From contig OZ038459.1 in NCBI GenBank assembly GCA_964036195.1, positions 24,983,206 through 25,047,205 of the forward strand: a DNA stretch of 64,000 nt, written 5' to 3'. The position numbers and the translations under genes were made by a program. Position 1 is the stretch's first letter, and every line of letters begins with the position of its first letter. The notes beneath the pieces were generated by a model. It saw nothing but the letters and a program-made list of their open reading frames with translations, was not told the DNA's origin and searched no databases. Of the stretch, positions 808-63,674 are shown one piece after another. The stretch is from Sphaerolaimus hirsutus. Lineage: Eukaryota; Nematoda; Chromadorea; Monhysterida; Sphaerolaimidae.

Positions 808-3800
808 ATTTTCGCACGTGCCGATTATTCCAATCGACGAATCGTCCCCAGTGGAAGACAAGCGAGTGAACGATTTCAGTCAAATCGAACAATTTCTCAG
901 TCAGAATCCATCATTCGGAGGTGACGCCTTAAAAGAGGTTCAAAGGAGCGCCAGGCGTCAGGAGCCAATTTCAAATGCAAATATCCCGATAAACAAACCA
1001 AAAGTGCCTGTGACCAGCCAAAATACTGCTCAAGGTACCATTGTTGCGTCGAGAAAGGTGATCACAAGTGCCCCAAAAGTTGAAACGCAAACGGAGCGAA
1101 CAGAAATTGGCACCCAGCCAAAAAGAGAGTCGGTGACTACAATCACCAAAACAACAACAACAACGACAACAACAACTGAGGCATCAAAGGAGCCGGAAAA
1201 TGTCATTGAAACATCGACATCGACACAAGAAATCCCAGAAACCGACATCGACATCGACTCGATCGACGTATTCAATCCGCGTGGCGACCGGGAACTTTCC
1301 GAACCGAATTCCGCGCTTTTCTACGTAGAAGACGACGGGCAAGAGGAGCAAAAATGGGTCGCTCGAAAAGTAAACGGACAGTTTCCGGAGGAAAGATTGG
1401 CGGAAATCCAAAAATTGGCGCGTTTGGCGCCGGTGGGGCAGCGATTTATCGACGCGCAAACACAAAATCAAGGCGGATTGATAGAAAGATCTGGGAGGAG
1501 CAGAATTTTCGCCAGCGAAATCGGCAGAAAATTGGCCCAAATCGACAGTTCCGCTGAAGCGAAGAGCATTTTGGACGGTTTGAAAAACGCCCCGAAAACT
1601 ACCCTCACCGAAAGTTTTAAGAGACACATTGAAAGATTGGCAAAACATGAAGTGGGTGATAATTTCTCGGCTATTCAGAAGTTTCTGGCACTTAATCCTC
1701 GGCTGGCCGGGAAATTACGAAGTGAAGCGGTCCAGCAAGCTTTGAATCCCGCCATATTGTCAATTTCTGGATTTAGGTGAGATCTGGAGCGATGTTTAAT
1801 TAGGCCGACATTTTTAATTATCAAAAATTTACCGAATATTCGTCTGGTGCCAGTTCGGCAAAGTGAGAAGTGGCAAGTGAAATGGCAAAGGCCAAGTGAA
1901 GTGGCAAGTGAAATGGCGAAAGCGAAGAGAAATTACTTTTTATTTTTATTTTTTTTACTTCGCTTTTGCCAATTCACTTGGCCTTTGCGCTTTTACTTGG
2001 CCTTTGCCATTTCACTTGTCACTTCTCATTTTGCCGAACTGTCCCCTGGTCAATTGTTACACTGAAAACAGGTGCCAATTCTGCATGTGGACAAGTGACA
2101 GAAAAAGTGGTAGGTTGGTGAAAAGTCTGGTTTTAAGTGACAGGCAAGTCAAGTGACAAGTAAATTACCAGATGAAATGACTTTTCATTAGACCTACAAC
2201 TTGTCACTTTACTTACCACTTTTCTCGTCACTTGTCTGCCTACAGCATGGGCCCCGGGTTATGAAATAAATACCGTATTTCCTCGAATTACCCCCGGGGG
2301 TTTATTTTTTCAGACTGAAAATTTTGAGAGAAAAACGTGAAAAATGCAACAATAACAACCATTTATAAGTTTTTACAGCATTATATAAGGACGTAGATGG
2401 TATAAACGATCTTCTAACGTAACACAGTAAGTGTTTTGAATGTCTGTTATGCATTTCCCGGACCACAAATTCATAGTGCCCATTTTGAGGGGGGTATTTC
2501 GAGGGGGGGGGGGGGTATTTCGAGGAAATACGGTATGTAGGTATTTTACATTGCAGAGTTTTGAACAACGTCAAACTTGATTCCAAATGGTGCCCCTTTT
2601 TGAGCCCTTTTTAAATGTTCAGTTCAAATGTTCGATATGATGCCGCTGTGCATACTAATGCACCACAGGAATTTGGGAACTCGTAAATCTGTTTTCGAGT
2701 TTACCGAGTAAATCGAGTTTACCACAGTTGACCACAACGACTAATCACGGCGATAAAAACGTAATGTGCCTACACACACTAGTTTTCACCGTGACTTCGT
2801 GTGAAAACTGAAATTTTTTCAACTGCAAGTTAATGAACACTGTTGAATGATTTAATTTAATTTAAATTTGAATTTAAATAAATGAAAGTTAAAATTTGGA
2901 AATTTGAAAACTAAAACACATATAGCATACAAAACGAGTAGGCTGGATGTGGCCATGTGGCCATTTCAGTTTTCACATTGGTCACGGTGAAAACTAGTGT
3001 GTGTAGGGCCATTCTAGTCAACTCAAATGCATTCAATATTGATTTATGAATTACCCAAATTTCAGTGGTGTACTAGTGTGTGCTGTGTGGCGCCACAATA
3101 AAACCAAAAAGTTAACTACCGTATTACCTCGAAATACCCCCAGGGGGTTTATTATTTCGCCAGCAAAATTTGAGGGGGGGATAATTCGAGGGGGGGGGGT
3201 TTATTCGAGGGGGGGGGGTCTATTATTTCGCCAAAAATTTTCGGAAATTCCCCATACGCAGACGTAGAAAAATCGAACAATCACATAGATTTATATGTGT
3301 TTATAGGCATATATTACTGTATATACACAAAAACCGTTCCCTAACGTCACTTAATCATCAGTTTTAACGTTTGTTCTGCATAGTACAGATTACAAACTGC
3401 GGTATTGTCATGTACGTTCACGTTACACCTAATTTTAGGGGGGTATTTCGAGGGGGGGGGGGGTTTATTATTTCCTCAGCCGAAATTTAGGGGGGGTATT
3501 TCGAGGGGGGGGGGGTTAATTCAAGGGGGGGGGATAATTCGAGGTAATACGGTACTCATTCTTCAATAAAAGCGTCCACTAAATCTTTCCCATCGTTCCA
3601 CAACACAGCGCCATATCTGGTGATGGATCTTCACAACAAAATCCGGTGACAAATTCACCCATCACAAAAACTGCATCAATTGTGCCAGACAATAGTGAAT
3701 CTGCCAGAAATAGAAGGATCCTGAAACAGCTAGCTGAAACACAGAGAAATTTGACATTGGCACAGAGCCAAAGTCTGAAGTCTGCCACTGAAGATCAGGG

Positions 3801-5892: not shown

Positions 5893-6123
5893 TACCGTAT
5901 CAGAGTTGCGAAAACGTATTTACGTTTACCCGAAATACCCGGTTATTCGGGTATTTATACTTACGTTTACGTTTACGCTTTCCAAAAATACCGTTACGTT
6001 TTGTTACGTTTTCCTGGCACAATTACCCGGGTACCAGAGAAAACGTAAAAATATGCTACACAGAACCATATTGTTTGACAAATGTAGTGTATTATGATGA
6101 GTTCAACATCTTCTAATGTTGAA

Positions 6124-6390
6124 GAGTTTGAATTCCGCAATTGGAGAACTCAAACACCAATTTGCAAGTGAAAAGTAAAAAGTTGAAGGAAAGTATTTTT
6201 GTGAGGGAGAACTGCAATGCGAATAAAAAGTGGAAACATTTTTAGTGTTTTCGCATGACTGACCATTTGTCTTTTAACTCGCCATTTCACTTAAAAATTT
6301 ACTTTTCTTTAAATTTTTACTTACCATTCAACTTGCCATTACTTCTCACTCATAATTTTTGTTAGTTCTCCTGTTACGGAATTGGCACCT
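6124..6390. mobile_element. Palindromic MITE of the GTGCC end family (M-d)
   Basis: The left AATTCCGCAATTGGAGAACT matches the inverted right AGTTCTCCTGTTACGGAATT, which ends in GGCACC. The arms contain AAGTGAAAAGT words. It is nested in H-a. Confidence 0.6.
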
Positions 6391-9913: not shown

Positions 9914-12900
9914 ATGTATTCCATGCACCGGGAAATCCCTACGGCTGCAGGAAGCGCCGCTCCATTCCCAGGGGGTATATCAACGTATTATAATGTCAGC
10001 CGCAAGAGACATTTTGCCGCCATCGCTAATAGGTGTCAGGTGAGAATTTGTTTATTTTACCGAATTTACAGTCAGCTACGGGCACTAAATAGTTTTCAAC
10101 CAAAATTTTGAAAGCTCACAAATCACTCAAAGCTCAAATTTCAAAAGCGTTCAAAGCTGATATGAGTTGTCTAAATTTCGGTGGAAAACTAAAAAAGTGA
10201 GTGTGTGTGTCTTTTTTTATTCACCTATTCAAAATACCGTATTTCCTCGAATTACCCCTGGGGGGTTTATTTTGAGACAATAACAATGAGACATTTTGAA
10301 AATTTTGAGAGAAAAACGTGAAAAATGCAACAATAACCACAATTTATAAGCTTTTACAGCCTTATATAAGGATGTAGATGGTATAAACGATTTTCTAACG
10401 TAAGTGTTTTGAACGTCTGTTATGCATTTCCCGGATCACAAATTCATAGAGCCCATTTTGAGGGGGGGGGGGGGTATTTCGAGGAAATACGGTAGGCATG
10501 ACATTTTTTGGGATCGAAATTTGAGGGGTCTGAGCTGAATATTCAGGGCATTACTATTTTGTCATCATTTTCATGAAAGATTTATCTGTTCTGATCTATT
10601 TACCTATAATCAAATTCGTGAATAAATGATTATAACACTTCATAATATTTTTTCAAAATTGAAGAAACTTGAAGACGAAATTTCAAGTCCGTTAAAATAT
10701 CACTTGACATTTAACCATGAAACAAATAAGTAAAATATGTGTTTACAATCTGTCCAACCAAATCACAAAACTCCGAAATTACCAAAGTCGCTCAATTTTC
10801 CCCAATCTCACACCCCTTCCCATCCCCCCCTCACATAACCCCCAAAATACCCCCAGGTAAACTTCACATCGTGGGACGACAAAGTGGACACATTCACGCA
10901 CGACTCGCTGGGCATCTCGCTCCCGTCCGGCAACGGGTCCGGGTCGGCGTCGGGCACCGTGTCGGGCATGGCAGGTGCCGGCTCCGCAAGTGGAAAAGTT
11001 AAGAGTTAAAAGTTTAGAGTTGAGTAAGATGACGAATGGTGAGTTAAGAGTAAAGTTGAATGATAAATGATGAGTTAGAGACAAGAGTAACGTTAAGAGT
11101 AAAGTAAAAAGACAAATGATTAGTTAAGAGATAAAAGTAAAGTTAAGAGTCAAGCAAGTGTATCCAAATCTTTTTTTTCGTATCCAGATCGTATGTTTTT
11201 GTATCCAAATCTTATGAGAGAACATAAGATTTGGATACAAAACATAAGATCTGGATACGAAAAATAAGATTTGGATACACTTGCTTGACTCTTAACTGTA
11301 CTCTTATCTCTGTACTAATCATTGGTCTTTCAAGATCACTCTTGTCTCTTAACTCATCATTTATCATTTAACTTTACTCTTTAACTTGCCATTTGTCATT
11401 TTACTCAACTCTTAACTTTTAACTCTTTACTTTTCCACTTGCGGAACTGGCCCCAGAGCGCCCCTTGCTGGTCACCCACGCAAAGTTCGTGTACGTGTCC
11501 AGTAGGACGGAGCCCCTGCTCGTGGTCGCTACTGTAGAGGGTTATATGGTGGGTGGGGGCGCTGGAAAATGCCTGATTTTGATACGATGAGTAAATGTAC
11601 CTTCATATGCATGTAATTACCTATACGTGTAAAGGACAATATTTTTAAAAATCTCATAAAATCTCTCAAATAATTTTAATTACATCTCCCCCGGGAAATA
11701 ATGACAAAAGGTAAATTTATAAAAATCTATCATTTTTAGATATTTATTTTCATATTTTTGAATACAAATCTCGCAAAATTTAGCGTGAATGGTCGACCGT
11801 TTATGCAGCGACCTCAGCCAACTTTACATTGAAATTTGTGATGAAAGATGGACTTAAATTTACTGAAAAACGATAACCCCAGAAACGGTTTACCACTTCC
11901 AATTTTTTAAACCAAATTTGCATGAATAAGCCACCCAAGGGAGTTATTTTACACAGTATAATACCTTGCACCTTCCCAAGGGAGTAATTTTTTGATGGGG
12001 ATCTTATTCGAGGGGGCTATTCATGGCGCTTATTATGTAACTAGGCTATATATAGGTTTCATTTTCTTACCCACAACCACTCAGATATTTGAAGCTGAAG
12101 GAAAGAGCCCAATACACTTTGCAATGATTGAAAAGATTGAATCAGGTCTGTGCTTCCTTTCCTTCTTGATGTAAATCACGTTATCAAGAAAAAAGCTCGT
12201 GCAAAAATTAAAGCAAACTTTTATCACAACTTATTGTATTTTATTTTAAACATTTGAAATTGTCTAGGTATTCTCTCCAATTAATTACTTAATTTATAAA
12301 TTTATTTAATTTTTTAAATTTAAATTTTATGCAAAACCGCCAGCGCCATGGCGCGGCAAAGAAAGAAAAAGCAGCACGGCGCTTCTGACGTTTGACGCTG
12401 TTTCACCTTGGCGCCATATCAGCTACTGGTGACTAGTGATGGAATGGCGCCATGGCGCTGGCGCCATTTGAGGGCGCCAAAGGGCGCCGCGCCATGGCGC
12501 CATTGGCGCTTGGCGCCCTTTTTCTGTGGCGCCCTTGGCGCCTGGCGCCCACTTTCTGAAAGGCGCCATGGCGCCCTTGGCGCTTGGCGCCCTTTTTAGG
12601 TGGTGCCCTGCCCTAAAAGGGCGCCAAAATGGCGCCAGCAGGGTTTCAAGGTGAAGGTTGGGTAAACGGCAAAAAAATAGAAAAAGCGTCCGTGGATAAT
12701 CGAGATTCACTGGAAAAATGGACGAGGGGGCCCTATTGGATGGAAACGTTTCATCCAATGATTCAGCAGACGCGTCTCATGAATCAGAAGCTGAAAATTA
12801 TGGACTGTTGAACTTGCAAACTCGTAAATCAACACATTCAAATAATCGTAATTTAGTTTTCACCCTCTTCAAGAAAACATCCATTGGAACCATCTGTTTA

Positions 12901-15900
12901 AAGTGGATGAATCGTTTTGTCAAATGACAATTTGCATTGCGTTTTAGGTGAATGTGTGTGTATGAATTTAAACAAAAAAATTGTTCCTGGTTTCCTTTTT
13001 GTGCTGATTACATCATAGAGAATGTGAATAAAAAGATGAATGTGTGGTATACAGTGTTAAAGCAACATTTTTAGCACACACAGGGTTTTGTATGCACTTA
13101 TTTACTCTGGCGCCATTGGCGCCTGGCGCCCTAATTTCCAATTGGCGCCCTGTTTCTGTGGCGCCCTTGGCGCCTGGCGCCCACTTTCTGAATGGCGCCA
13201 TGGCTCCCTTGGCGCTTGGCGCCCTTTTTCTGTGGCGCCCTTGGCGCATGGCGCCCAGTTTCTAAATGGCGCCATGGCGCCATTGGCGCCTGGCGCCCTT
13301 TTTTCTGGCGCTTTTCCATCACTACTGGTGACACGATGATGAAAAGCACCACGACACTATTTTTACGCGGTGTCAGCCTGGGGGCAGTCTCAAGCCCTGT
13401 AAAGTGTAAAGTAAAGTGTCAAATGTAAAGTCAAATGCAAAGTAAAGTGTCAATCAAAACAAAACTAAAAAGAAAAGATTTTATTACTGAACTTTGCATG
13501 ACAATTGACAGTTTACTCTGCATTTGACTTTACATTTGACACTTTACTTTACACTTTACAGGGCTTGGGACTGCCACCAGGAACAAAACGCCTGCTGGCG
13601 GTAACAACGCCAAAGCAAAAAAAGCAATGGCGCTTGGCGCTACTCGGCTCTGGGGCGGTGCCATTGGCGTGTGGCGCTGGGGGTTGGAAAAGCGTCATGG
13701 CGCTGGCACCTAAGTGCACACGCTTTTACATTCCTAGTACAATTCATCTGGCTATCCGGTTATCCATTCAAATATAATTTAAAAAAAATGAAAGTTGATA
13801 TACCTAGGTACCTAATTGAAATTGCGCCTACGTGATTGTACCAGAGTTGCGAAAGCGTATTTACGCTTACCCGAAATACCCGGGTAAATGGGTATTTATA
13901 CTTACGCTTACGCTTACGCTTTCATAAAATACCCGTACGCTTTTTTACGCTTTCCCGGCCAAAATACCCAGGTACTAAAAGCGTAAAAAAGCTTTTCACA
14001 CGGTTCAGTTTTACACTTTTGAAAAAGCATAAAACCACAAAAAGGGTCAACGACACTGCGTACCAAAAAAATGACTGCGTGTGTGCTGTGTTACTATGTA
14101 CTGCAAATAGTGGCAATGTACAAATTGTGTCGCAGTATCAATGTCTTGCTAATACTATGTCGTCGAGCAAAATCGTGATTTCAGATTAGAAATTTTGGGC
14201 TGAAAATGGATTCCGACGACGATGTTGTCGCCGTCGACAGCACTAACTCCAAGTTCGAAGATGAAGATAACTTAAGTGTCGCTGCCGGTGAATTGTCAAA
14301 CCACATATGAGGGCAGACTACTAAGTGGACATCCAAAAAATGTCGCTGAGAGCTTGATTCAGAAAGAATTTATTGAGAAAAAGTCTCTGTAAAAAGTTTT
14401 ACGCTTACGCTTTTATTTACGCTTTCCCAGGTATTTTAAAAATACCTTACGCTTTTAGTATCCATACCGAAAATTTGGAAAGTGTATTTACGCTTACGCT
14501 TACGCTTTCCAAAAATACTGGTATTTTAACAACTCTGGAATGTACTGTTGAGGTAAAACTGCAAATATTGGAATATAAATTATAATAAATATCTCGCAGG
14601 TTCATTCTGCTTCATGAAGGGTATCGCCAGCGTCAGGCACTATGTCGTCATTGGTGAGAAAACTTAGATTACTTTCACTTTGATATTCTATGCCGCTGCG
14701 CAAACTTTTTAGTAAATTGATACTACGAAATGTGGAAAACCATTTAAATTGTTTTGAACGCATTTTTCTGCGCAGAATCCTACCGTCATCTAATGAATAA
14801 AATCATATGTATAATAATTTTCATAATTAATCATTCCAAAGTAAAAACGAAATATTCTGATGAAAATACCGTATAATTTTTGGTTCGTGATTCTGGTGGG
14901 TTATGGTAATTGGTAGGTTCCCATACTCAATGTGATGTCCGCCGCTTATATCTAATTTTTAATAGTCATTTTTTCAAACCCATCATACCCCGCCCCCCCC
15001 CCCCCCCCGCAGGGAGCCACACTGGGGAAGTTCACGTGGTTTCCGTCGGGGAATCTTCAGTGCGCACCAAATCCAGTCTGAAGGAATTGGTCACGGCTAA
15101 CAGCACGCCCGCGGCGGAAAATAATGAGAATGGCGCCTTAGATCAACCGTGTAGGTGCATGTGATACTTGACACTTGACACTTGACACTTGACAGGATAC
15201 TTGAAACTTTAGTCCAAACTGATCCAGCTATTTATGTCATTCACTTGATGGGGAAGACAAAGGTCAAAATGTCAACTAACAAAGTGTCTATTAAGTCGCG
15301 AGTATGAATTCAAGTGCACCCATAGTAAAGTGTCGAGTGAACCTTCAATTTTCATGAATAAACTTGAGAGGCACTTGAAACGATTGTAACGACCTGGGAA
15401 TTTGATAGCATCGATCTGTAAGTAGACAAGTGACATAAAAGTTGTAGCTAATAAGTAATGTAAAAAGTAAACGTGAAGTTTCAAGTGAATTTGTAAATAG
15501 GTATACTCCGGTTACTTTACACCTTGCACGCGTGGTTCCCGCTGGAAGTGTGCCAACGATGGTTAACGCGTGCGAGTTTCATAAAAAGATGACAAATATT
15601 ATTGTTGTTATAATGGTATTCATTAACATATCCACATCGATGAATTTTTGTCATCTTTTTACGGAAATCGCATGATTAAATAATCATTGGCATCTTTCCA
15701 ACACGAGACATAAATCTGTGCGAGGGCAGAGTATCATGTACGTCGAGTATAGTGATGGAAAAAGCGCCAGGCTTTCGGCGCCAAGCGCCAAAAGCGCCAT
15801 GGCGCTTTTCTGACCCCGGCGCCAAGCGCCAATGGCGCCAGAGCAAAATGGCGCCAAGCGCCAAAAGCGCCATGGCGCTTTTCTGAACCTCAGCGCCAAG

Positions 15901-18900
15901 CGCTAATGGCGCCAGAGGGTAATGGCGCCAAGCGCCAATAGCGCCAGCGCCAAAAAATATGTTCTGCAATTTGATGGTAGAAAAATGAGTGCATGACTGT
16001 TAGTGACGTACCGCTGAAGTCGTAGTAGTCTATAGAACTTTTGTCCATTCAAACAACCACTAAATCGGGGCACAATTTCTCAAATAATAGCTCTGGATAG
16101 ATACATATCTGGTCGATTTGGTGGGGTGGGGGGCTCGAGGGATAGTAGCCTAAAATTTAGCCTCAGGTTAGATAGATAGCTGAGCGGCCCCGGGGATAGA
16201 TAGATAGCTGGTGCATTTGTTGGAGGGTAACCCCCCCCCCCCTCCAACCCCCGCCAGACTGAACCCCTGGTTTAGGCTGCAAGAAAGAATTGGGAGCAAA
16301 GCATAAAAAGGGATTTACCGCGATTTTAACACCTCTGCTTTTATTCGATGTAGGCATCTATTTATATCCCTAATATCTACCCTAATATTTATCAATATTT
16401 ATTCAGTTGCCTCAAAATTGATCAACTGTAGTGTCAATTTCACCGTATTAAAACAATTTTTTATCATCATGGTTGGCGCTTTTTTGGCGCCATTTAAGAT
16501 GCCGGCGCCAGGCGCCAATAGCGCCACCAGAAAATGGCGCCAAGCGCCAAAAGCGCCATGGCGCTTTTTGCTTTGGCGCTAGCGCCAAGCGCCAGCGCCA
16601 TGGCGCTTTTCCATCACTAGTCGAGTATACATAAGAAGTACTTGTTACTAATAAATCCACTTGTCACTTAACCACTTTCCTCTTTCTCCACTCGCGAAAT
16701 AGGGCACTTATCCGTCACAACCCAACAGGAAATCTGCAACTTCATTCAAAACGAGTCACTTAACACTTAACACTTAACAGACCGTGCGATAGTAAGCGCG
16801 TGGGGCAGCGACAACCAGTTGGCAGTAGCTACGGCTGGAGGGGCGATCGCGTCCTACACGGTAGTTTCTTCGGGCATCAAGCACACCGCCACCATTAGTA
16901 CGCGGTTTGTAGGGCTTGCAGGGTTTTGACTCTTGTGTGGGGTGTAGGATGTAGGGTGTAGGGTGTTGGGCAAATGCCTTTTTGAGGTTCGTTAAGGCTG
17001 TCTTGGCGTTATGAGGGATTAGCTGAAAGCGATGATAAATAACGAAATAGGTATGCTCCCTGGAGCTACAGGTTTGGTTGTACTGGGGCTTGTCGCTTGT
17101 TCTGCATGCCAACATAAAATGTGACAGAAAATGTGATGGATGCGGGGGTCTTGTAAATTTTGACCTTTTTTTGAGATTTTTCAGTGGTTAGTCGACCAAG
17201 TGACAATGACATTTTTATGAAAACACTTGTCACTTTTAAGTTTACCTATCCTTGGCATGTGACAATTACAACATTGAATATGACTTACCAATTTCTTCAC
17301 TGGTCGCTTATCCACATTCAAAATTTCACGCCAAAATCATCAAACTCCGCCCACACACAAACCCCAAACCCAATCACCAATCACAAAGCCCAAATCGCCC
17401 CATAGCGAACCCCTCCTCTGCGTGGCTCTGTGCTGCGGCGCAGAAGGCACTTTGTGCGCGGCGGGCACGGCCACCGGCGGCATACTCCTGTTCCAATTGC
17501 CCAACGGAAAACTGGTCGCCGCGGCGGATGCGCACGCCAGGGCTGTCAATGATCTGGCCGCGCCCGCAAAGTCCAATTTGGTGGGTACTTTTGTTTTTAC
17601 CTAACGTATTTCCTCGAATTACCCCCATGGGGGTTTATTATTTCGCCAGCAAAATTTGAGGGGGGTTTAATTCGAGGGGGGGTTAATTCAAGGGGGGGGA
17701 TAATTCGAGGTAATACGGTATGTATTTACCATATTTTTTTCTAATAGAAGGGTGTCAACTTTGCGTTTTCGCTTTCCGCAGGCCATTTTTTCCGTTTCCG
17801 TTTCCATTTTACGGCTGGCACATTTTTTCCATTTCAGTTCTCCGGCAACTGCAAAAATTTGTCGTAAAAAACATTTTGTTGACGCCCTAGCCGTGATATT
17901 TTTTCGGATACACGTCGTTCTATTGGAGCCCTGGAGGCTGCCATTGTATTTTTTACCAGTTAGAATATACCGTATTTCCTCGAAATACCCCCCCCCCTCG
18001 AAATACCCCCCCCCCCCCTCAAAATGGGCACTATGTATTTGTGGTCCGGGAAATGCATAACAGACGTTCAAAACACTTACTTTGTTACGTTAGAACATCA
18101 TTTATACCATCTATATCCTTATATAAGGCTGTAAAAACTTATAAATGGTGGTTATTGTTGCATTTTTCACGTTTTTCTCTCAAAATTTCCACTCTGAAAA
18201 AATAAACCCCCTGGGGGTATTTCGAGGAAATACGGTAGTATATTTCAGAGCAAAGTATGCAATTACAGTGTGCAGTAAATATATACGCACGTGAACAGGA
18301 CCATGATAGTGGATATGCAAATGTGTAAAATATGTTCGCCTACTTTCACAGCTTCTATCCGTTTCCGAGGATTCATTCGTGCGCGTGTGGCGGGTCAATC
18401 AGAAAAACAAGGAAGCCTCTGTTAGTTTCTTGTTTCTGCTTTGAATAAATTGCCATTAAATTTACTTGTCGTTTGCCCATTTTTTATTAAACTGCCAATA
18501 TAATGTGCCCACACACACTAGTTTACCATTATGAAATGCTCGACCATTTTGGTAAAGCGGCGTTTACACTGCGAGCTGTGCCAACAAATTTTTTTCTGTC
18601 GGCAATGGTCATTTTGTCACGACAACGCACAAATTTTTCTAAAATTTTGCCTGTGCCGATAAAAAAGCCTCGTTCAACAGAAACCGAACCGACAACGAAA
18701 ATATGACAAAAAAGCCTCGTTGAATTCCGGGCGAACCGACAACGAACATTTGGACGGATTGGCAATTAGTGTGATCATTTTTGGAATGAGGTATGAATTG
18801 CGCCATTTTCAGCAAATATAGGGCAGCCTCCCGTAAGACACTACCGCTTCGAATTATCCCCCCGCGTGAATTACCTACCTCTTCGAATTATCCCCCCCCC

Positions 18901-24900: not shown

Positions 24901-27900
24901 TTGGCGTTTTGTCTGTGTTGCATTCGCTTTTTGTCTGTGTTGCATTCACGTTTTGTCTGTAGTATATTGGCGATTTGTCTGTTATGATTAGCATGAGTTT
25001 ACCAAATTCTTAATAATCTGAACATAAAAATGCAATGTCCATGTGATTCTGATCATTTTAAGTGTTCATTGGTGAAAATCGGCTGAGAAATGGCCAAGAA
25101 ATTGAGTATTGAAGTTGCATGCATTCACCCACGCAATCAATAATCCGATTACAAATACGTCTGCACGCGAATTACATAATTCGGGCGGCGGACGTATTTT
25201 TCCGCACACGCCATTGACCCCGCAATAATCCAATATGGCGAAAGTCCCATAACTGGACACACCGATAATCGATGTCAATAGGCCTAACAGACGCGTGCAT
25301 AATTGTGGCGTGCCACGCGTCAATAAATATTTTTGATCTGATGCAAGCAGTGTTCTTGCATTGCAATAAATAAAAGGAAGTATAAAACACATTCCCATGG
25401 CCCAACAGATGCCCCAATAGTGTAATTAGATATTTTGTATGGAGGACTACATCATCCCACATTATAAAAGTCGGGCCGAAGTAGTCCTCCGGGTGAAGTA
25501 GTCCTCGAGGGCTATATCAACCCAGGGGGTAAGAAGTCCATGGGGGATAGGGTACGTAAGCCATCCAAGGGGACACGTAATCCATGGGGGGGATAATTCG
25601 AGGGGATAGGTAATTCATGTGGGGGATAATTCAAGGTGGTAGGTAATTTACGCAGGGGGGATAATTCAAGGCATTAGGTAATTCACGCAGGTGGGGATAA
25701 TTTGAGGTTCAGAATCGCTGAGGTTTGCTGAGGTTCAGAAAAGCGCCATGGCGCTTTTGGCGCTTGGTGCCATTTTGCTCTGGCGCCATTGGCGCTTGGC
25801 GCTGTAGGCAGGAAAAGTGCCATGGCGCTTTTGGCGCTTGGTGCCATTTTGCTCTGGCGCCACTGGCGCTTGGCGCTGTAGGCAGGAAAAGCGCCATGGC
25901 GCTTTTGGTGCTTGGTGCCATTTTGCTCTGGCGCCATTGGCGCTTGGCGCCGTAGGCAGGAAAAGTGCATTGCACTTTTGGCGCTTGGCGCTAAAAGCCT
26001 GGCGCTTTTTCCATCACTAGTCGCGGCCATTGTGTCCGCGGACTTCGTGTCCGCGGCCATCGTGTCCTGCGGCCCTCGTGTCCCGCGGCCACAACTGCGC
26101 GGCCACAACGTCCGCGGCCACAACGTCGCGGCCACAATGGGCTCATACCGGGGGGGGGACGAGGGTGGGTATTTAGAGGAAATACAGTGTATACATACCC
26201 ACCAGGGTAAAAACTGTTATTTCTACTTCATTGGGTACAATTTTGCCATTTTTTATTTTTGTCGGTTCGGGTCTCGTTAACGAGACCCAAACCGACAAAT
26301 CGAGCAAAAACGAGGACAGTCGCGTGTCTCTTGTGTCAGTTTGTTGGCACGTTGCCGTCACAAGCTGCGAACGTGTTTTTTTAATTTTTTTGTGCTGACA
26401 TTCAGTATTCCAATGGAATGGCACGTTTTGGCACACTTTTGCACTCACGAAAACAACAGAAAGGCAGCCTCCAATTGAATGGCATGTACTAAATATTATT
26501 AGCGTGTAAACTAAGTTTCTTATATATTTTTGCAATCTGATACAAATACACATTCCTGCATTCCATTCTGTTGTACGTTGACCGATTTTGATGCCCTTCA
26601 AGTACATTTGGTTTTGATATCTGGGCTATGACAAAAAAATTGTTTGCTCGAATAATCCTCCAGTCCCGAGATAAGGGGGGTCTATAACATCATGGTCATT
26701 TTGCATGGCTGATCTGGCCGATCGACTTTGGAGCTCAATAACTCGGCCATTTCTGAGCCGATTTCGACCATTCAACACTTACAATGATCGCGACAACCTG
26801 TATATTCCATTTTTATAGTCGGCTTAGAGATGTCTATATTCCCAATGGATATGGATCCGATTTGGACCGTTCAACATTTTAAATGATCGGCACAACCTTT
26901 AGATTACATTTTTGTAGTTGGCTTATCAAGAGCTTGTCAGTGATGAGGGGTTTAGTGGAGGGGGGGGGTTGGGGGGGGGGGGTTACCCCCCAAATCCGCC
27001 AGCTATCTATCTATCACGGAGGCCCCCTCAGCTATCTATCTATCCCGGAGGCAAAATTTTGGGCTACTATCCCCTAAACCCCCCCCCCCCAAAATCGGCC
27101 AGCTATCTACCTGTCTGGAGCGATTTTTGAGAAACTATACCCCAATTTTCACTCAAAATCGCTATTTTTCATACCGTTATAAAGATTTTAACCTTCATAA
27201 TCACTAGTTCATGCTCCACCCAGAAAATTGTTCCCACCCAGAAAATCACCCCCACCCAGAAAATTGTTCAGCTATCTATATCTCTGGAGGAGCGATTTGC
27301 TATCTATATGAACCCCTGCGGGAGTCCAAATCTACAAAACCCCTGCAGTGATGTCAGTATCCCTTATGCCGATTTGACTAGGTTTTTCAATGGAAATTTT
27401 TTTTCTGAACATGCTATCATACAGTTTTGACAATGAGAATTCATATACCGGGCGAATTTTTTCAAGTTCTCTTTCCAATACAAAGTTATAGCACTTCAAA
27501 CTGCCGCCTCCCATTCACATAAAAACCACTTGAAGAATGTGGCGTGCAAATTCATAACTCCATATCTCGACCTTTTCACACTGATTTTGACAAATGAACA
27601 CTTCAAATGATCAGAATAACCTGCAGATTTCATTTTTATGCTAACATTATTGGTATATTTCACTAGATTTCCCATAAAAACAAAATAATGCGAACTGTTG
27701 TATGAAATAATCATTATGAAAATGCAACCACCATATTTTCTCGAATAGTTCCCCCGGGGAATTATTTTTTCCTCATACTTTTTTGAGGGGGGAATTATTC
27801 AAGGGGGGAATTATTTTTGTAGCAAAATTTTTAAGCACAGTTCTTTCAATTTATTTCACACAACATTCATGTTGAGTGAAACAACATGCTGTTCTACTTC

Positions 27901-32346: not shown

Positions 32347-32701
32347 TTTTGATTTTGTAATTTTTGTTCCGTAAACCTCGGCAATGTAAATAGGTATACT
32401 CGGCGGACACTTAGTATAGAAGCCTACCTAAGCCATCTGAATAATGAACCAAAAATTTCACATTTTTTCGTCATAATACGTTTTTTCATCACTTCTTTAT
32501 AGTAAAGAATGATAAGTTAGGCCCCTTTCACACTGCGGAAATGGAAATGGAAAATGGAAAAAAAATTTAGTAGGTGAAAAGTAAAGAAAAAAATTCAGCG
32601 GCCAGAAAACGGAACGAAAAATGGAAAAAAATTGCTTTCGGATAACGGAAACAGAAAACGGAAATTTGACACCTTATAGCCAATGGTGGCATAGGCATGG
32701 C

Positions 32702-34644
32702 TAGTGATGGAAAAAGCGCCAGGCTTTTGGCGCCAAGCGCCAAAAGCGCCATGGCGCTTTTCAGACCCCGGCGCCAAGCGCCAATGGCGCCAGAGCAAAA
32801 TGGCGCCAAGCGCCAAAAGCGCCATGGCGCTTTTTTGAACCTCAGCGCCAAGCGCCAATGGCGCGAGAGGGTAATGGCGCCAAGCGCCAATAGCGCCAGC
32901 GCCAAAAATTTCTTTCTGCAATTTGATGGTAGAAACGAGTGCATAACTGTGGGTGATGTACCGCTGAAGTTGTAGTATTCAATTGAACTTCTGCCAGTAC
33001 AAACAACCACTACAATGTGTATTAATTGTTTAAATACCCAGAGACATAATTTTCAGTCAAACATCATGACTGTGAAGCTTTCAATGGGGAGTTCTTTGTT
33101 TCTCGCCCAGCTAAAGGGTGGAGTGATTTAAGGGACATATATAGCCAAAAACAGTTGAAAGTGGTCATAATTCACATGAACAATAGTGATTTTGAAGTCT
33201 GAAAAATCACGACAGTGACCGAGTGATGTGAAAATCACGGGAACGTTTCCAGAAAAAGTATGAAAATCAGCATTTTTTGTGTAAATCGAGGCAAAATTAG
33301 ATAATTGCTGGTAGATAACTGATAGATAATAGCTGGTCGATTTTGGGACTGGGCTCGAGGGATAGTAGCCTAAAATTTTGCCTCAGGATAGATAGATAGA
33401 TGGATTATTTGGGGGTAACACCCCGCTCCCTCCCAACCCCCGCCAACTGAACCCCTGATTTAAGCTACTATAAGCAATTGGAAGCAAAGCATAAAATGTC
33501 ATTTTCTTAAAATAAACTTTTTGGAGTTATCAACTTTTATAAGTTCAAGCTTAAAATGAAAAAGGTGGGTACAACTAGGGTGTGAAAAAAATTTTTTTAC
33601 GGAAAACGGAAACGGAAAAAAAATTTCAGCGGCCGGAACACGGAACGGAAAACGGAAAAAAATTTGCACTTGGCGGAAAACGGAAACAAAACGGAAAAAA
33701 AATTTCAGTGGCCGGAAAACGGAAAAAGCAGCCGGAAAAACGGAAACGGAAAAATGGAATTTGCATGGAAATGGAAAAATTTGCTGAAATTTTGCCTAAA
33801 AAAACGATAAAATTCGCTGAAATTTGGCTGGAAACAGAATTTGTTTTACATAATTGACAATCTGCATGACTGTTTACCAGTTTGGCTGCAACAGAAAACA
33901 GAAAGTTGAGCCAGAAAAGGGTAAAATGAGGCGGAAAGCATGAAATTGAGGCGGAAAACGGAAAAAAAGCAGAAAAACTGGAAATTTAGCTGGAAAACGG
34001 AAAAAAGGCGGAAAAAAGGTGGAAAAACTGAAAATTTCACCAGAAAACGGAAAATGAGCCGGAAAAACGGAAACGGAAAAAAAGGTGGCCGGAAAACGGA
34101 ACAGAAAACGGAAAAAAAATTTCAGCGGCCGGAAAACGGAACGGAAAACGGAAAAAAATTCGCCTGCGGAAAACGGAAACGGAAAACGGAAAACGGAAAT
34201 TTGACACCCTAGGTACAACACAAGTACGTTTTTTGAGCGAACAAAACATTGTTCCACATTCAAATATGAGGATGTGTAAAGTAAAAGTAAACACATTTTA
34301 ACGCTATGCATTTATTCGATGTAAAGTCTACCCTAATATTAATCAATATTTATAAAGTTTTCATAAAAATTGATCAACTGGAGTGTCAATTTCAGTGTAA
34401 AAAACTATTTTTGATTATCATGGTTGGCGCTTTTTTGGCGCCTTTTTTCATGCTGGTGCCAGGCGCCAATAGCGCCACCAGAAAATGGCGCCAAGCGCCA
34501 AAAGCGCCATGGCGCTTTCTCGGACCTCAGCGCCAAGCGCCAATGGCGCCAGAGCGTTTTAGCGCCAAGCGCCAAAAGCGCCATGGCGCTTTTTGCTTTG
34601 GCGCTAGCGCCAGGCGCCAGCGCCATGGCGCTTTTCCATCACTA
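32702..34644. mobile_element. hAT-like element, GCGCC family (E-c), with a nested CCGTTTTCC element
   Basis: Ends TAGTGATGGAAAAAGC and TTTTCCATCACTA with perfect 8-bp duplication GGCATGGC (32694-32701, 34645-34652). The interior matches E-b and E-e apart from the 636-bp insertion at 33576-34211. Confidence 0.92.
33576..34211. mobile_element. hAT-like element, CCGTTTTCC family (F4)
   Basis: The ends are TAGGGTGTGAAAAAA and AAATTTGACACCCTA, with perfect 8-bp duplication GGTACAAC (33568-33575, 34212-34219). The body is GGAAAACGGAAACGG words. It is nested in E-c. Confidence 0.92.
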
Positions 34645-34981
34645 GGCATGGCAATGATCCAATGCACATTGTTTCAAAAAAAGAAACAAACATACCATAC
34701 TTTGTCTTACAGAAGTTTTATGCTTTTCGTCTTTTTTACTTTTTTACCTTTTTAGCCTTTTTTACCTCGTGATGGAATGGCGCCATGGCGCTGGCGCCCT
34801 TTTCCCTGGCGCCATTATTTCAAATGGCGCCATGGCGCCCTTGGCGCTTGGCGCCATTTTGGCCCGGCGCCATTGTTTTGGATGGCGCCAGAAAAGGCGC
34901 CAAGAAGTGATAAAAATCGTACTATTGTCATGTTCAAACTGCACAATATTACCTATTTGAATATAAATGATTTACTTTACC

Positions 34982-36453: not shown

Positions 36454-39400
36454 TTAAAACTGGAAAACGTATTTTAACATTTTGTAATAATCCGGCGTGT
36501 TCTTGGGGAAATGCTTGTCACTCTTCAAAAACTTTTTCATGCTTGGCATTGCCTTGATTTTTTCGAAATGTGCCTGTGAATGAAAAATGCGCGTTAAAAA
36601 AATAGTACACGATATGTATGGAAAAATGATTTTTGTTGTTCTAATTGTGACCACACACCAGAGTTGCGAAAGTGTATTTACACTTACCCGAAATACCCAG
36701 GTAAATTGGTATGACAAAATGCCTGGTGCTGGCGCTTGGTCCTGGCGCTTTTTACATTACTCCTTTTTGCAGTACCATATTACCCTAATACTAAATGATT
36801 TCCTCTCGAAAAACTTAATAAAATTCAATCTCTCTGGACAAACATGGGGAAAATATAAAAAATAAACCATTTTTACAATTTCTCAAACCAACTAATCGCC
36901 CGGTTATTTTTGTAACGCTAAACTACCCATTTCCCCCCACCTAACCTTGCAATTGGGATAGGGATCTAGCGCATTGGCTCCCTTATTTTCGTCGATGGCG
37001 AAAGTCACGTGGAACAGGGCCACGTCGGCGAAGGACAGCTTGCCGCCCACCAAGAAACCGTTCTGCCCCTCGGAGAGCACCTGTGGATAGGGGGGGTGAT
37101 TAAGGGGTGCTTGAATTAGCCCCCAGGCCCAGGGGCCAGATTCCATTCTTGGGTAATGCGAGTAAGCTATGCCCTGCACGCCTGACAAAATAAAATGTAT
37201 ATACCTAAAACAATTTGTGGATTTTCAAATTTAAAAAGCATTTAATCGCAATGTTTTTCATAACTACAAACGCTGAAATCAAGACGCTGTAAAATGTCAT
37301 GTGGCATGTGAAAGAGCCTGTAAAGTGTCAAATGTCATAAATGTGTAAGATTATATAAAGTGCATCCAAAACTTATTGTATCATATCCAAATCTTAAGTT
37401 ATTGTATCCGGATACACCTTACAGGGTCCGCAACTATCACCAGGCCCCTTCATCACAAAAAACTTCACCTTCTCATATTTAGGCATGTACCTCTTCATGG
37501 CATTATCGGTGTTTTTGTTGAACACGTCATCGGGCACTATGCACAGCATCATGAAAGGCGCGCAGAAGTCGTTTGCTCCATCAGCCAACATATTGATTCT
37601 GCCAAGTGTACACTTTTGGGTATTTTTGCACTTATAGTGTGTAAAATGCATTGGTAGGATGGATAATTCACTTGTAGTGTGGATAATTCACACTTATGAT
37701 GAATAGAAATATTTGAAATGTGTGACTCCTCAATTGATCATGATTTGATCAGTCTTACTCACAGTCTAGGACAGACATAAATTTTCATAGATTATGTAAT
37801 CACTAATCATGCACAGTGCATTGTATTGAAAACATCCTGGGAGAAAAATTCATAAAAAATCTTTGAACATGTATTCTATATTTTCTCCAGGTTTTCATGA
37901 GAGATTTAATTATATTTTATTTCTGAGAAGAAATTACAAAAATATATACCGTATTACCTCGAATTATCTCCCCCTTGAATTCACCCCCCCCCCCCTCAAA
38001 ATGGGCTTTGATGTAAGAATATGAAAAGTGCTTGTTTTTTAGGTTTATTGAGTTGCTACTGATGAGGACCCAGCTCAGTTAGCTAGTCTAGCAATATGGG
38101 TCGAAACTAGTATTTCCTATTAAAAATTAAAAATAATAAAGCCCCCTCGAAATACCCCCCTCCAGAATGATGTATACTTCGGTTACTTTACACCTTGCAC
38201 GCGTGGTTCCCGCTGGAAGTGTGCCAACGATGGTTAACGCGTGCGAGTTTCATAAAAAGATAATAAAATTGATTGTTGTTATAATGTTATTCATTAACAT
38301 ATTCACATCGATGAATTTTTTAAATCTTTTTACGGAAATCGCATGATTTAATAATCATTGGCACGCTTCCAACACGAGACATAAATCAGTGCGAGGGCAG
38401 AGTATCATGTACGCCGAGTATACATCATGTATGCAATGTACATGATGTAGGTATTTATTACTGCAAATTTGCATTGCAGCAAGATTTTTTTATGCTCATT
38501 TGTGTACAGATGTACATCTATAGCCCCAACATAACCTTCTCATGTTTATTACCGTTTTTGTGCATGAATAAGCATATTCTTTGCTATAAATTTCACGAAA
38601 CTTTCTGACGAAATAAACCCCCCCCCTCAAATTTTGCTGGCGAAATAATAAACCCCCATAGGGGTATTTCGAGGTAATACGGTATCATTAATATTTTATA
38701 TATATTTTCTGTACATCTTTCAGATAGATTCAATTATATTTCCGTTTTGAGAGATTTTTGGAGATTACATTTCATTATATTTTCTCAAAATCACAAATTG
38801 TTCAATCCTAAGTGCACACTAAGTCATATTTTTCCTTGTTGTCAGCAGTTGTCAGCAAACATGAAACGAGTCAGTGATTCGGTTTTTAGGTTCAAGTAAC
38901 ATATGCCTTTAAATTTGAATTTGAATGGATGGATTCCATCGGGTTCATGGTAAATTTTATTCAATCTGACTTTCTATTCAATAACGTAATAAATTTTATA
39001 AACATATCATTAAACACAAAGAAGCCCACCTGAATCTCTCCTCCTTACAGCCATTCCCCATCAAGCCCCCAATATCAGCAAAGTACCTGGCTGTAGAAAA
39101 GGACTGCACCATATTCATTCCCTTGTACTTGACCAGGGGCAGTTGGTCAAATTGGAGATCTCCATCAGCTCTTAATTTGTTCAGTTTCTCTGGAGTGTCC
39201 ACAAAGTCCCCATGGGTGAACTGGGAGTTTGGTTTTGGTTTTTTAACATTCCATCTATTTATATGACTTAACATCCCCTGGATATGGCGCCATTTAGGGT
39301 ATAGAGCAAATGATATTCAAATAAATTTTGTCAAAAGTGGAATCAAATTTTTATGATACATTTACTGCACTTTGATGCCATTTGATAAAAGTTTGGTATG

Positions 39401-40409
39401 ATTTTGTGAAAACTTGGCAAAAATATAATGTCAAACAAATGAACATTACTCCACTTCAGCTATATTTTACAACTGGTTACAAGTAAAGAAACTAAAGTTA
39501 AATTTGAGATTTAAACGCATTATTGAATATCATTATTAACAACATTGTTGGATTAACAACATTCAGTAAAGCCCACCCATGCAACACACTGTTATACTCC
39601 GGTTACTTTACACCCTGCACGCGTGGTTCCCACTGGAAGTGCGCCAACGATTGTGAACGCGTCAGAGTTTCATAAAAAGATGACAAAATTGATTGTTGTT
39701 ATAATGTTATTCATTAACATATTCACATCAATGAATTTTTTTCATATTTTTCTGGAAATCGCATGATTTAATAATCATTGGCACGCTTCCAACACGAGAC
39801 ATAAATCAGTGCGAGGGCAGAGTATCACGTACGCCGAGTATACAACCTCTGATTGTAAGAGTCTGCTTGCTGGAAAAAAGTAAGCAGAACCTCATTCCTA
39901 TTCATTTCTAGACCTTCACCAGATGATATAAAAAATTTAAACTTCCTAGACCTTTCTCCTAAACTTCCTAAAATCTTTCTAGACCTTCCTTTAAAGATTT
40001 TCTAGATTCACCACTTTAAATTCCAAATCCATGTATAGTCAAATCAGGTGGAATAAAACAGCCTAGGAATTATTAGTCATTACATAGTGAGCTACCTAGA
40101 GGAACAAAATTGGGTTCCACTATTATGATGCAAATCAATTCATGTGGCAAAGTTTGAATTAACCAAATGATATGTTAGAGTCCAGTAGTGCATTCGTTAA
40201 CATATCCTGATAAATAATGCATACACTATGTAGCTGTGTGTGCATAAGATAACAAGTGCCCTACACAACAACACCCTAACCCTTGTCAATTGAAATGATA
40301 AAAAATAAATCCAGTTTACCTCAATTCCAGCTGCAGCCATAGTCAACCGAATTATCTGGCTCCTCCCCCTGCCTTTTACATAAATCAAGACTGGCTTTTC
40401 AGCTGCCAT
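36454..40409 (-). CDS. Glutathione S-transferase, alpha-class-like (GST-A), complete
   Basis: Five exons on the minus strand: 40409-40320, 39220-39030, 37598-37469, 37080-36946 and 36573-36454 (TAA). All introns are GT-AG and in phase, giving 221 residues, close to the roughly 222 of alpha GSTs. It conjugates glutathione to electrophiles in the cytosol as a dimer. The thioredoxin-fold half has MAAEKPVLIYVKGRGRSQII with the expected catalytic Tyr10 and nearby Arg16. QLP (56-58) holds the cis-proline and QS (69-70) the glutathione gamma-glutamyl contact. The helical half has GKLSFADVAL (150-159) with the S-x-x-D capping box, and the C-terminus YVFQF resembles the family's aromatic last helix. 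Sigma class is the main alternative, but length and the C-terminal tail favour alpha-like. Introns carry several transposons. It lies head-to-tail with a second copy at 60959-63477. Confidence 0.92.
36657..36760. repeat. Fragments of H-type and GCGCC elements in GST-A intron 4
   Basis: CAGAGTTGCGAAAGTGTATT with TTACCCGAAATACCC is an H-family end without its partner. It is followed by TGGCGCTTGGTCCTGGCGC, a GCGCC-family remnant. Confidence 0.55.
37310..37444. mobile_element. Palindromic MITE of the GTGCC end family (M-g) in GST-A intron 3
   Basis: The inverted ends AGCCTGTAAAGTGTC and CCTTACAGGGTCCGCAACTA point to the same family as M-f. It begins about 25 bp inside the intron from the exon 3 donor (37468) and is absent from the corresponding place in GST-B. 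Confidence 0.55.
37947..38684. mobile_element. CCGTATT-family MITE (A12) with a nested TATACTC element
   Basis: It runs from TACCGTATTACCTCGAATT to TTCGAGGTAATACGGTA, in GST-A intron 2. The TATACTC-family copy 38173-38422 interrupts it. Confidence 0.8.
38173..38422. mobile_element. TATACTC-family element (B-b)
   Basis: It begins TATACTTCGGTTACTTTACA and ends TACGCCGAGTATAC, nested in A12. It closely matches 39593-39842. Confidence 0.8.
39593..39842. mobile_element. TATACTC-family element (B-c) in GST-A intron 1
   Basis: It begins TATACTCCGGTTACTTTACA and ends TACGCCGAGTATAC. It is about 250 bp like B-b and has no ORF. Confidence 0.8.
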
Positions 40410-43485: not shown

Positions 43486-45372
43486 ATAAGTAAATTTTTT
43501 TAATTTTAAGTAAAGTAAATTAAATTGCTTGTACATTGATCCGCTCTACCCCGAAATTAAATTAAATTAAATTAGCTATCTTCCCTGGGGAAGCGCAATA
43601 AGCTACTTATCTATCTGGCCCCTGTGAGGGTCAACATTCAAGATACAGTATTTTTCAAAATACACTGTTTTTCAAAATACACCCTTGAATTAACCCCCAG
43701 GTGTTTTCGAGCTGAGGAAAAAATAACCCCCCTGAAATACCCCCTCTGGAATATCATCTACATAACATCGGCGGCGCAAGGTCCCAATTTGCGCTTGTGA
43801 CATTCACATTAGCCTAATTTTCATATTGTGACACCTTCTTATCTGAGCACTTATGTGAAGTTGGCAGCCAGCCAAAAATTACGAAATCGCTATAAATATA
43901 AATAAAATTGGCTAAAACTAGGTATATAATCATGTATATAGATGAAAATAGTGATTATAGACGAGAATATTGGCAAAATGGAGCAAATTTTAGCGATTTT
44001 TAGCTAATTTTGAGCTTTTAATCTCATTTGTACGATACACGCTTGTGAATGTCACAATGTGACAGTGAAATTTCTGCGTGTGACACCAAAAATTCCGCTT
44101 GTGGCAATCACAAGCGCACAAGCACTTACGCCGCCTATGCTACATAAGGTACATCATGTTTTCAATATACCTACACGATGTATTAATAGGGGCCAATTTG
44201 CACCGTAGCTACACATAGCCTAGTTTGTGTAGCAATGTACACCACTGATCACTAACATCCAACCACAAGCGATTAAAAAAAAAAAGTTTGCCACCCCTGA
44301 TCTAGGACTTATCGGTTGGATGGGTTCCATGAAAAATGAAGTTAAAACATTTGTCAAAAAAAGTATATGGGCACCCCCTGCTGAAACCCCCCGTGGGATG
44401 TGTAAACGGCACACACTTTTTTTATACAATTTTTTGCTGATCACTCAACTCCAATCATGAGTTATAATTCACTGAATTCCTGTCTTTCAAGGCCGTTTTT
44501 GGCCTGAAAAACAGAACAGGCTCATGGCAACGTGCCAAAAGCCATTTCAACGGCATTTTTACCTATCAAAATAAGATAATGATATTTTAATTTTGTATTG
44601 CTTTGTACCGCGGAATGCATGCGGTCGTCATTCATATCGCAGAACTTTCTAGCGCTGCGAAACGTGATTGAAAAAAACTTCCACATGAGAGAGGAAGCCG
44701 AAGGCATTCTTTTAAAACTTACTGCGCAGAAATACACCCTCCCAAATTTTTGAGAATATGCGAGGCGAAGTTTTAAGAAGACACCAAATTTCAATCCGGG
44801 AACAAAATTAGTACAGATGAAAATGTAGCGAGGTGTTTTTAATTTCGCCTCGCATATTCTCAAAAATTTGGGAGGGTGTATTTCCGCGCAGTAAGTTTTA
44901 AAACAATGCCTTCGGCTTCCTCTTCCATGTGGAAGTTTTTTTCCAATCACGTTTCGCAGCGCTAGAAAGTTCTGCGATAAGAATGACGACCGCATGCATT
45001 TCGCGGTACAAAGCAATACAAAATTAAAATATCATTATCGTATTTTGATAGGTAAAAATGCCATTGAAATGGCTTTTGGCACTTCGCCATGAGCCTGTTC
45101 TGTTTTTCAGGCCAAAAAACGGCCTTGAAAGACAGGATTTCAGTGAATTATAACTCACGATTGGAGTTGAGTGATCTGCAAAAACTTGTATAAAAAAAGT
45201 GTGGGCCGTTTACACGGCCCACGTGGGGTTTCAGCGGGGGGTGCCCATATAAACACCTTCCCGGTCAAGTAAGCCACCCATTTTTTTATTTCACTTCGGA
45301 AGCTATATCTCGGGCTATGGTGGGGTTATAGAGCTGAAACTTTGTGAATATATAGTTGTAACATCCCTCTAC

Positions 45373-46324
45373 TAGTGATGGAAAAAGCGCCAGGCTTTCG
45401 GCGCCAAGCGCCAAAAGCGCCATGACGCTTTTTTGACCCCGGCGCCAAGCGCCAATGGCGCCAGAGCAAAATGGCGCCAAGCGCCAAAAGCGCCATGGCG
45501 CTTTTCTGAACATCAGCGCCAAGCGCCAATGGCGCCAGAGGGTAATGGCGCCAAGCGCCAATAGCGCCAGCGCCAAAAAAATTGTTCTACAATTTGATGG
45601 TAGAAAAATGAGTGCATAACTGTGAGTGACGTACCGTTGAAGTCATAGTAGTCTATTGAACTTTTTTGCCCAGTAAAACAACCACTAAATCGGGGCAAAA
45701 TTTCTCAATAATCGCTCTCGAGAGATACATATCTGGTTCCTTTGGGGTGGGGGGTGGGGGGCTCGAGGGATAGTAGCCTAAAATTTAGCCTCAGGTTAGA
45801 TAGATAGCTGAGCGGCCCAGGTATAGATACATAGCTGGAGCATTTGTTGAGGGGGTAACCCCCCCCCCCTCCGGCTCCAACCCCCGCCAGACTGAACCCC
45901 TGATTTAGACTGCAAGAAAGAATTAGGAGCAAAGCACAAAAAGGGGATTTACCGCGATTTTAACACCTCTGCTTTTTATTCAATGTATGCATCTATTTAT
46001 ATGATGTCTACCCTAATATTAATAAATATTTATTCAGTTGCCTCACAATTGATCAACTGCAGTGTCGATTTCACATATTATAACAATTTTTTTATTATCA
46101 TGGTTGGCGCTTTTTTGGCGCCATTTAAAATGCCGGCGCCAGGCGCCAATAGCGCCACCAGAAAATGGCGCCAAGCGCCAAAAGCACCATGGCGCTTTCT
46201 CAGACCCCAGCGCCAAGCGCCAATGGCGCCAGAGCGTTTTAGCGCCAAGCGCCAAAAGCGCCATGGCGCTTTTTGCTTTGGCGCTAGCGCCAGGCGCCAG
46301 CGCCATGGCGCTTTTCCATCACTA
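45373..46324. mobile_element. hAT-like element, GCGCC family (E-e)
   Basis: Ends TAGTGATGGAAAAAGCGCC and CGCTTTTCCATCACTA with perfect duplication CCCTCTAC (45365-45372, 46325-46332). The interior is homologous to E-b. Confidence 0.93.
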
Positions 46325-46995
46325 CCCTCTACTCTGCATTAATGGGGGGAGGCATGGCGACTCATTACAGGGTGGGTCGCCCTATATGCAACAATTTTTT
46401 GCCAGGATTTTTGAGCGGGGGGGCGGATTGTATACGGAGCCCGGCGAACGGGGGGGGTGGCGCCCCCCCCCCCTAAAATTTTACCCCTGTTGTAGGGGAA
46501 TGGCGCTGTGGCGCTGGCGCCATTTGAAGGCGCCACGCCATGGCGCCACTGGCGTTGGCATTGGAGCTAAAACAGCAGTATACATCTGTATTTTACAGGC
46601 ATATACAGCGACATGGACAGAAATTGAGTCCATTTTCACTGGTTTTTAGGCCGCGGAGACTGGTCAGCAAAAAATATATGTTGTGAAGGGTGAATGCGCG
46701 CTTGCGCGCAAAATTTGTTCAAACTGTCGACAAAATCGTCGTCTGAAAGTGCCATTTCTGGCACATTTTTTGGTCCGGCCCGGGAAGGGGGGGGGGGCGG
46801 CCGCCCCCCCCGCCCCCCCCTGGCTACGTCCTTGGGGCGACCCACCCTGTAGTGAGTCGCCATGCCTCCCCCCATTGATGCAGAGTAGAGGGATGTCACA
46901 ACTATATATTCACAAAGTTTCAGCTCTATAACCCCACCTTAGCCCGATATATAGCTTCCGAAGTGAACTAAAAAAATGGGTGGCTTACTTGACCG

Positions 46996-52672: not shown

Positions 52673-52680
52673 CTAGTGAT

Positions 52681-52852
52681 TAGTGATGGAAAAAGCGCCA
52701 GGACTTTGGCGCCAAGCGCCAAAAGCGACATGGCGCTTCTTAGAACAACAGCGCCAAGCGCCAATGGCGCCAGAGCAATATGGCGCCAAGCGCCAGAAGC
52801 GCCATGGCGCTTTTTGCTTTGGCGCCAGCGCCATGGCGCTTTTCTATCACTA
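52681..52852. mobile_element. Minimal GCGCC-family element (E-g)
   Basis: It is only 172 bp of GCGCC words, with ends TAGTGATGGAAAAAGCGCC and CTATCACTA and the perfect duplication CTAGTGAT (52673-52680, 52853-52860). The unique interior is absent, yet both ends are present. Confidence 0.88.
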
Positions 52853-52860
52853 CTAGTGAT

Positions 52861-63477: not shown

Positions 63478-63674
63478 CTGGGAGTAAAAAATAGGAAAGA
63501 ATGTGTGATTTTATAAAATAGAATTAAATGTGATCTCAGAAAATTTGTCAAAACTCAAAAGGAAGTACCTTATAATTAAATAGGTTTTGGAAAATACTGG
63601 AAAAACATAAAAATTAAAAATTAAAAATTTTACATATATTTATATGCCAGAGATTTTTTTGAATGCTAACTGTC

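Follow-up and report, generated by a model that had tools for sequence, protein, structure and literature searches.

The window, i.e. the whole stretch of 64,000 nucleotides analysed here, comes from a 348.5-Mb assembly of 762 contigs (C15:24983206-25047205). The gene that begins at position 9914 is WDR54: its protein, joined by hand from the open reading frames with the ends of exons 5-10 placed by eye, matches the Pfam family PF21031 with 57 bits (the cut-off is 26.6). The gene and all its features described below lie on the plus strand. Exon 1 (9914-10039) is an open frame that continues in exon 2 (10857-10974), which is entered in phase 0, left in phase 1, and ends GGCATGGCAG, with CAG as the last triplet. 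Exon 3 (11457-11548) begins AGCGCCCC. The two are separated by intron 2 (10975-11456), a phase 1 intron of 482 bp with splice sites predicted from the sequence. The Pfam match covers residues 82-360 and starts at the codon split by this intron (residue 82), where exon 3 begins. The residues to the left of the junction form a Gly/Ser-rich linker outside the match, and residues 1-133, searched alone against Pfam, matched no family. As the left exon end lies outside the match, the evidence at WDR54 is the restored reading frame and not a conserved alignment.

Intron 2 consists of a palindromic element of 479 bp (10975-11453) and one CAG, with 0 bases beyond them (the layout is ...GGCATGGCAG / GTGCCGGCTCCGCAAG...CTTGCGGAACTGGCCC / CAG / AGCGCCCC). 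The element, a MITE with relatives genome-wide and a probable affinity to the PHIS/NuwaI type, starts GTGCCGGCTCCGCAAG and ends CTTGCGGAACTGGCCC. Its terminal inverted repeats occupy 10975-10990, the first two bases of which are the GT of the putative donor, and 11438-11453, which reads GGGCCAGTTCCGCAAG outwards. The same triplet, CAG, is found on the left (10972-10974) and on the right of the element (11454-11456) as two copies of the target-site duplication, the right one containing the 3' AG of the intron. Removal of 10975-11456 gives ATG GCA GAG CGC, in frame and in phase 1. The initial annotation had described intron 2 as exactly one palindromic transposon between two copies of a 3-bp CAG duplication, with the GT supplied by the element, the AG by the second CAG, and the frame restored by excision. 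This description holds, and 4 of the 55 other copies read have the same layout (see below); the range given for it, 10963-11468, encloses the element and 12 bp of exon on each side.

The arms of the element comprise 74 nt with 88% and 105 nt with 89% complementarity, and pairing extends over nearly the full length. Folded as RNA, the stretch 10963-11468 is predicted to form a single hairpin of -324.8 kcal/mol (z -36, 100 shuffles).

Element family and target site

With the element as the query, the genome search returned 2930 first-look candidates. Scoring covered 40 of these places and, besides the query, gave at least 39 relatives with 88-94% identity over nearly the full length. The closest copy among the places scored is located on C3 (94% identity). 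In a comparison of 45 elements, which range in length from 189 to 1131 bp, the WDR54 copy is 88% identical to L005. It starts GTGCCGG and is a member of a 480-bp group that, from the sequences, appears to be younger.

An exact pattern of CAG and terminus (CAGGTGCCRGTTCCGCAAGTGG) occurs 704 times in the genome (358 and 346 by strand) versus 0 for the reversed control. From the first 100 listed of these 704 matches, 55 copies were read: 30 as delivered, 5 chosen for GTGCCAG, and 20 more. Within the 100, 11 of 11 GTGCCAG and 44 of 89 GTGCCGG copies were thereby read, thus the sample is enriched for GTGCCAG (L050 and L051, both of this type, are identical duplicates). The right terminus is present in 51 of the 55 copies and is exactly CTGGCCC in 40 of these; it is followed by CAG in 37, CTG in 11, and another triplet in 3 (n=51), as counted by a script that took the nearest end with a matching triplet wherever one existed. 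The two ends of the family are unequal, with GTGCC at one and GGGCC (in outward reading) at the other. The elements are short and non-coding, have terminal inverted repeats, and exist in many copies, which places them among the MITEs.

The window contains a second family member (1847-2045, plus strand, 199 bp), flanked by CTG on both sides, in apparently non-coding surroundings. It has no AG at its end and, consequently, is not excisable as an exact GT-AG intron. Only 4 of the 55 copies read are bounded by splice sites, hence the family is best described as a general MITE family with some members that would form introns, not one confined to introns. The initial annotation had held that rarity of the family at splice sites would speak against its reading. 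Such bounding is rare indeed (4/55), but in our view this does not refute the reading, since a copy outside genes is uninformative about one inside an exon.

The left flank is CAG or CTG in 7 of the 7 relatives L002-L008, for which no triplet was imposed on the listing. In a set of 34 non-redundant sites, found with a search pattern that itself demanded CWG, the bases flanking the triplet favour GAC before and GTC after it (50-65% per position); the triplet is CAG in 20 and CTG in 14 of these sites, the orientation being arbitrary. The target of the zebrafish Harbinger3 transposon is of the same palindromic kind. The preference GAC-CWG-GTC also resembles the exon-junction consensus, and the palindrome contains the ideal exon junction CCAG/GT.

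In 11 of the 51 copies (L022, L025, L031, L041, L042, L048, L053, L055, L056, L058, and L060) the left triplet is CAG but the right one CTG. The two triplets differ at the central W alone, and random mutation should strike the C and the G too. Mispaired ends may account for some of these copies, and the mismatch is also seen in the short ones of 205-220 bp (L056 and L058); simple duplication does not explain it. A further observation, made by eye, concerns a family copy (L006:1502-1981) at a CTG adjoining the apparent donor of an opposite-strand gene, with GC-rich flanks, an arrangement that would fit an attraction of insertions to splice junctions by the target motif CCWGGT.

Spread of the family via viruses was considered and rejected. 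The one exact terminus match in viral_contigs (L064) is preceded by a triplet other than CAG or CTG and has no second terminus to pair with; by our estimate, chance alone would produce about one match of this kind.

Copies within coding sequences

Excision of the same kind rebuilds a coding sequence in at least 4 of the 55 copies (L020, L027, L033, and L040), three of which are among the first 30. The cases were spotted by eye in the joined flanks, so this number is a lower bound. In the other 51 copies no restored coding sequence was seen: in 4 of them the missing right end precluded joining, and the remainder were judged by eye. Pfam was queried with five peptides (those of L020, L027, L033, L040, and WDR54) and the PDB with two (L027 and L020).

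The joined flanks of L027 (GPTGQEMRCTQREKSSAWWQ/DELGRIVLQVC...) align without gaps over the junction with residues 654-714 of the Fanconi anemia group J protein (9ej9; E 2e-5). The match to the left of the junction depends on this single PDB alignment, and the Pfam helicase match, to the right of it, reaches 22.4 bits, below the cut-off of 25.3. The element of L033 interrupts a C2H2 finger, with the cysteines on one side and the histidines on the other (YKCNYCDFQGKDQ/RYLAKHMVMKH), and PF13909 spans the finger end to end. In L040, an LDL-receptor class A domain is interrupted immediately ahead of its last cysteine (CDGWDDCKDGADEQ/DC) by an element of 1131 bp on the minus strand; the whole peptide matches PF00057 with 2.8e-12, and the junction falls in the best stretch. 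In L020, the flanks to the left and right of the element are open in frame and GC-rich (TTLLYQ/GYSYEAMSRTLVKQL). This copy was counted on the open frame and composition only, and its joined peptide has no relative in Pfam or the PDB. The exact restoration at four further places, three of them in known proteins, is thus read from the DNA itself, as are the element, its ends, its duplication, and its family. The introner-like reading proposed in the initial annotation gains support from these copies, to the extent that sequences can give it.

Four other copies were left out of the count or gave no clear result. In L042, whose triplets are CAG (left) and CTG (right), open frames adjoin the element at either end, but the element end carries no AG; this copy was left out as a doubtful case. 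So was L006, in which the element stands beside the splice junction of the opposite-strand gene (by eye). In L049, an opposite-strand open frame adjoins the element, and in L012 nothing clear was seen (both by eye).

In WDR54 and in the four other genes, CAG is present at both ends of the element, and no base of an older intron is left beside it. The same termini are found at both predicted splice sites in all five genes, with low internal similarity of the older copies. If the element were retained, a stop would follow by codon 9-12 in each of the five. These features bear on the possibility that the element entered a pre-existing intron, the ends of which it came to reach when the old intron sequence was later lost. 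The introns of the window are full of MITEs (by eye), the family copy at 1847-2045 occupies non-coding sequence at a distance from exon ends, and the L006 copy at a CTG beside an apparent opposite-strand donor (by eye) indicates that insertion at existing junctions may happen. However, the five genes would have had to lose all of the old intron independently and exactly, each down to a CAG at both ends. Five separate insertions into exons would be the likelier course, and we consider a history of such losses improbable.

All five genes have a weak donor, GTGCC(A/G) in place of the usual GTRAGT, and few pyrimidines before the 3' AG; in WDR54, the 3' end (GGAACTGGCCCCAG) has hardly any pyrimidine tract. 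Weak sites of this kind would fit a recent insertion into the WDR54 frame that is not spliced at the element ends, with that gene copy damaged or spliced via other sites. On the other hand, the other exons of WDR54 keep an open frame and are scored as WDR54 by Pfam, and four other genes are alike, three of them coding for conserved proteins that need this splice. The four coding copies have no close relative in the comparison of 45 elements (at most 87% over 62 bp, between L027 and L033; for L020 and L040 no match to the other elements at 1e-10), and this low similarity suggests long persistence. We consider an insertion of this kind very unlikely. That element ends and splice sites coincide by mere chance in a single gene, as the one case in the window itself might suggest, is a negligible possibility, refuted by the four further coding cases among 55 copies unless all of them are misread.

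The coding cases are not evenly distributed between the two types of terminus: 4 of 11 copies starting GTGCCAG (4 of 10 with L050 and L051 merged) are coding, versus 0 of 44 starting GTGCCGG (Fisher p about 0.001). As all four coding cases are GTGCCAG while the WDR54 copy is GTGCCGG, the group to which the latter belongs has, from the sequences compared, weaker support as a source of introns. WDR54 would represent either an insertion too recent for selection to have judged or a functioning example from the younger group.

The intron-forming copy of L040 has been enlarged by many repeats of the units of one arm and folds poorly, with both ends kept. Its predicted fold is far weaker than that of the WDR54 copy (-98.8 kcal/mol over 1134 nt).

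Proposed intron formation and known introners

Our preferred reading, to which we assign a probability of roughly 0.87 on the sequences at hand, is that WDR54 intron 2 was created when a non-autonomous element of the PHIS kind (PIF/Harbinger-like, NuwaI-type) was inserted by cut and paste into what had been a single exon. The element is most likely an introner, namely a MITE with a 5' splice site of its own and a 3' one taken from the target duplication. A transposase of the NuwaI type would prefer CWG, best within GAC-CWG-GTC, and would duplicate the CWG. If the coding strand reads CAG and the GTG end enters first, insertion at CCAG/GTC would give exon-CAG/GTGCC...GGCCC-CAG/GTC-exon, in which the first two bases of the element serve as the donor and the duplicated CAG provides the acceptor AG. 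Splicing would then take out the element and one CAG, and the original coding sequence would be back with no gain or loss. In the reversed orientation, or at a CTG target, one splice site would be absent. The palindrome could fold and bring the splice sites together, which may help the weak donor GTGCCG; a hairpin may in this way compensate for weak splice sites, but it would not always be needed, as L040 folds much more weakly.

The family is most likely to be placed near NuwaI as a non-autonomous relative, because it has the CWG duplication and, at one of its two ends, the GGG terminus of that group. Autonomous copies there encode a DDE transposase together with a Myb/SANT protein. NuwaI, of the PHIS superfamily, is described as having CWG duplications and terminal inverted repeats of 12-61 bp usually starting GGG, in 16 animal genomes (PMC4482050). 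The elements studied here agree with that description in the 5'-CWG-3' duplication, the GGG at one terminus, and the animal host, whereas their other terminus is GTG, i.e. a splice donor, and their arms exceed 12-61 bp. By analogy with NuwaI, GTG and not GGG would be the altered end. A broader proposal, which we hold tentatively and at somewhat less than even odds, is that the change from GGG to GTG at one terminus made a NuwaI-type transposon an intron maker, a complete intron in favourable exon context arising whenever it enters a CAG in one of the two orientations, that this is a new and recently active source of introns in animals, and that the palindrome folds the weak splice sites together. 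The words "recently active" refer to the 94% identity between the WDR54 copy and its closest copy.

How new introns arise has long been asked, and very few cases have come from animals. The introners that Huff and colleagues are said to have reported in 2016 from the algae Micromonas and Aureococcus are reportedly DNA transposons, MITE-like and with target duplications, that made introns on insertion; their duplications are said to be of 8 bp, compared with 3 bp in the animal studied here. The design of an own 5' splice site with a borrowed 3' one has already been described (Gozashti et al. 2022, PMC9860276), and that survey places introners in only two animal groups and finds copies enriched in genes in 161 of 175 genomes. 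Here, 4 of 55 copies are exact coding introns, in a sample enriched for GTGCCAG and with the other copies lacking gene annotation. The likeness to the introners of Gozashti et al. extends to the element giving the 5' splice site, the duplicated target giving the 3' one, and the presence in unrelated genes. They differ in that their duplications are of 4 bp and terminal inverted repeats were not evident, in contrast to the 3-bp CAG, the long palindromic arms, and the animal host of the present family. The introner elements of Amoebophrya are alike in that inverted repeats lie in the intron, direct repeats of 3-5 nt lie over the exon boundaries, and a predicted hairpin joins the exon ends (PMC7789003). 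Their splice sites are non-canonical and variable, as are their direct repeats, unlike the GT...AG, the one target motif, and the one terminal sequence found here.

No introner derived from a PHIS/NuwaI-like MITE in an animal was found in the literature searched, a body of texts that most subscription papers fall outside. Introners as such are known and animal cases are rare; a PHIS/NuwaI-like animal introner would be a new addition to them. The genome offers an intron-making element with a nameable transposon group, spliceable and non-spliceable copies being present side by side. The step from transposon to intron can thus be tested directly, by comparing GTG with GGG ends, CAG with CTG targets, and elements with a hairpin to those with none.

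Other features of the window

More palindromic MITEs with arms of the AAGTGACAAGTG type are present in the window (13380-13577, 6120-6390, and 2072-2260). Their termini are related or degraded, and the element at 13380 ends differently (GGGCAGTC). GGCGCC-rich repeat units (TGGCGCCATGGCGC...), often flanking a unique centre, occur at many sites, and many of them are listed as tandem repeats. By eye, elements of this kind were located at ~12340-13330, 15750-16620, 25730-26010, 32700-34650, 45370-46330, 46980-47890, 52680-52860, and 58620-59960. A glutathione S-transferase gene is present in two copies on the minus strand (36970-40409 and 60970-63485), the first recognised by a GST_C_3 match of 48 bits and the second by eye. 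Their exons are very similar, and their introns, filled with transposons, are different.
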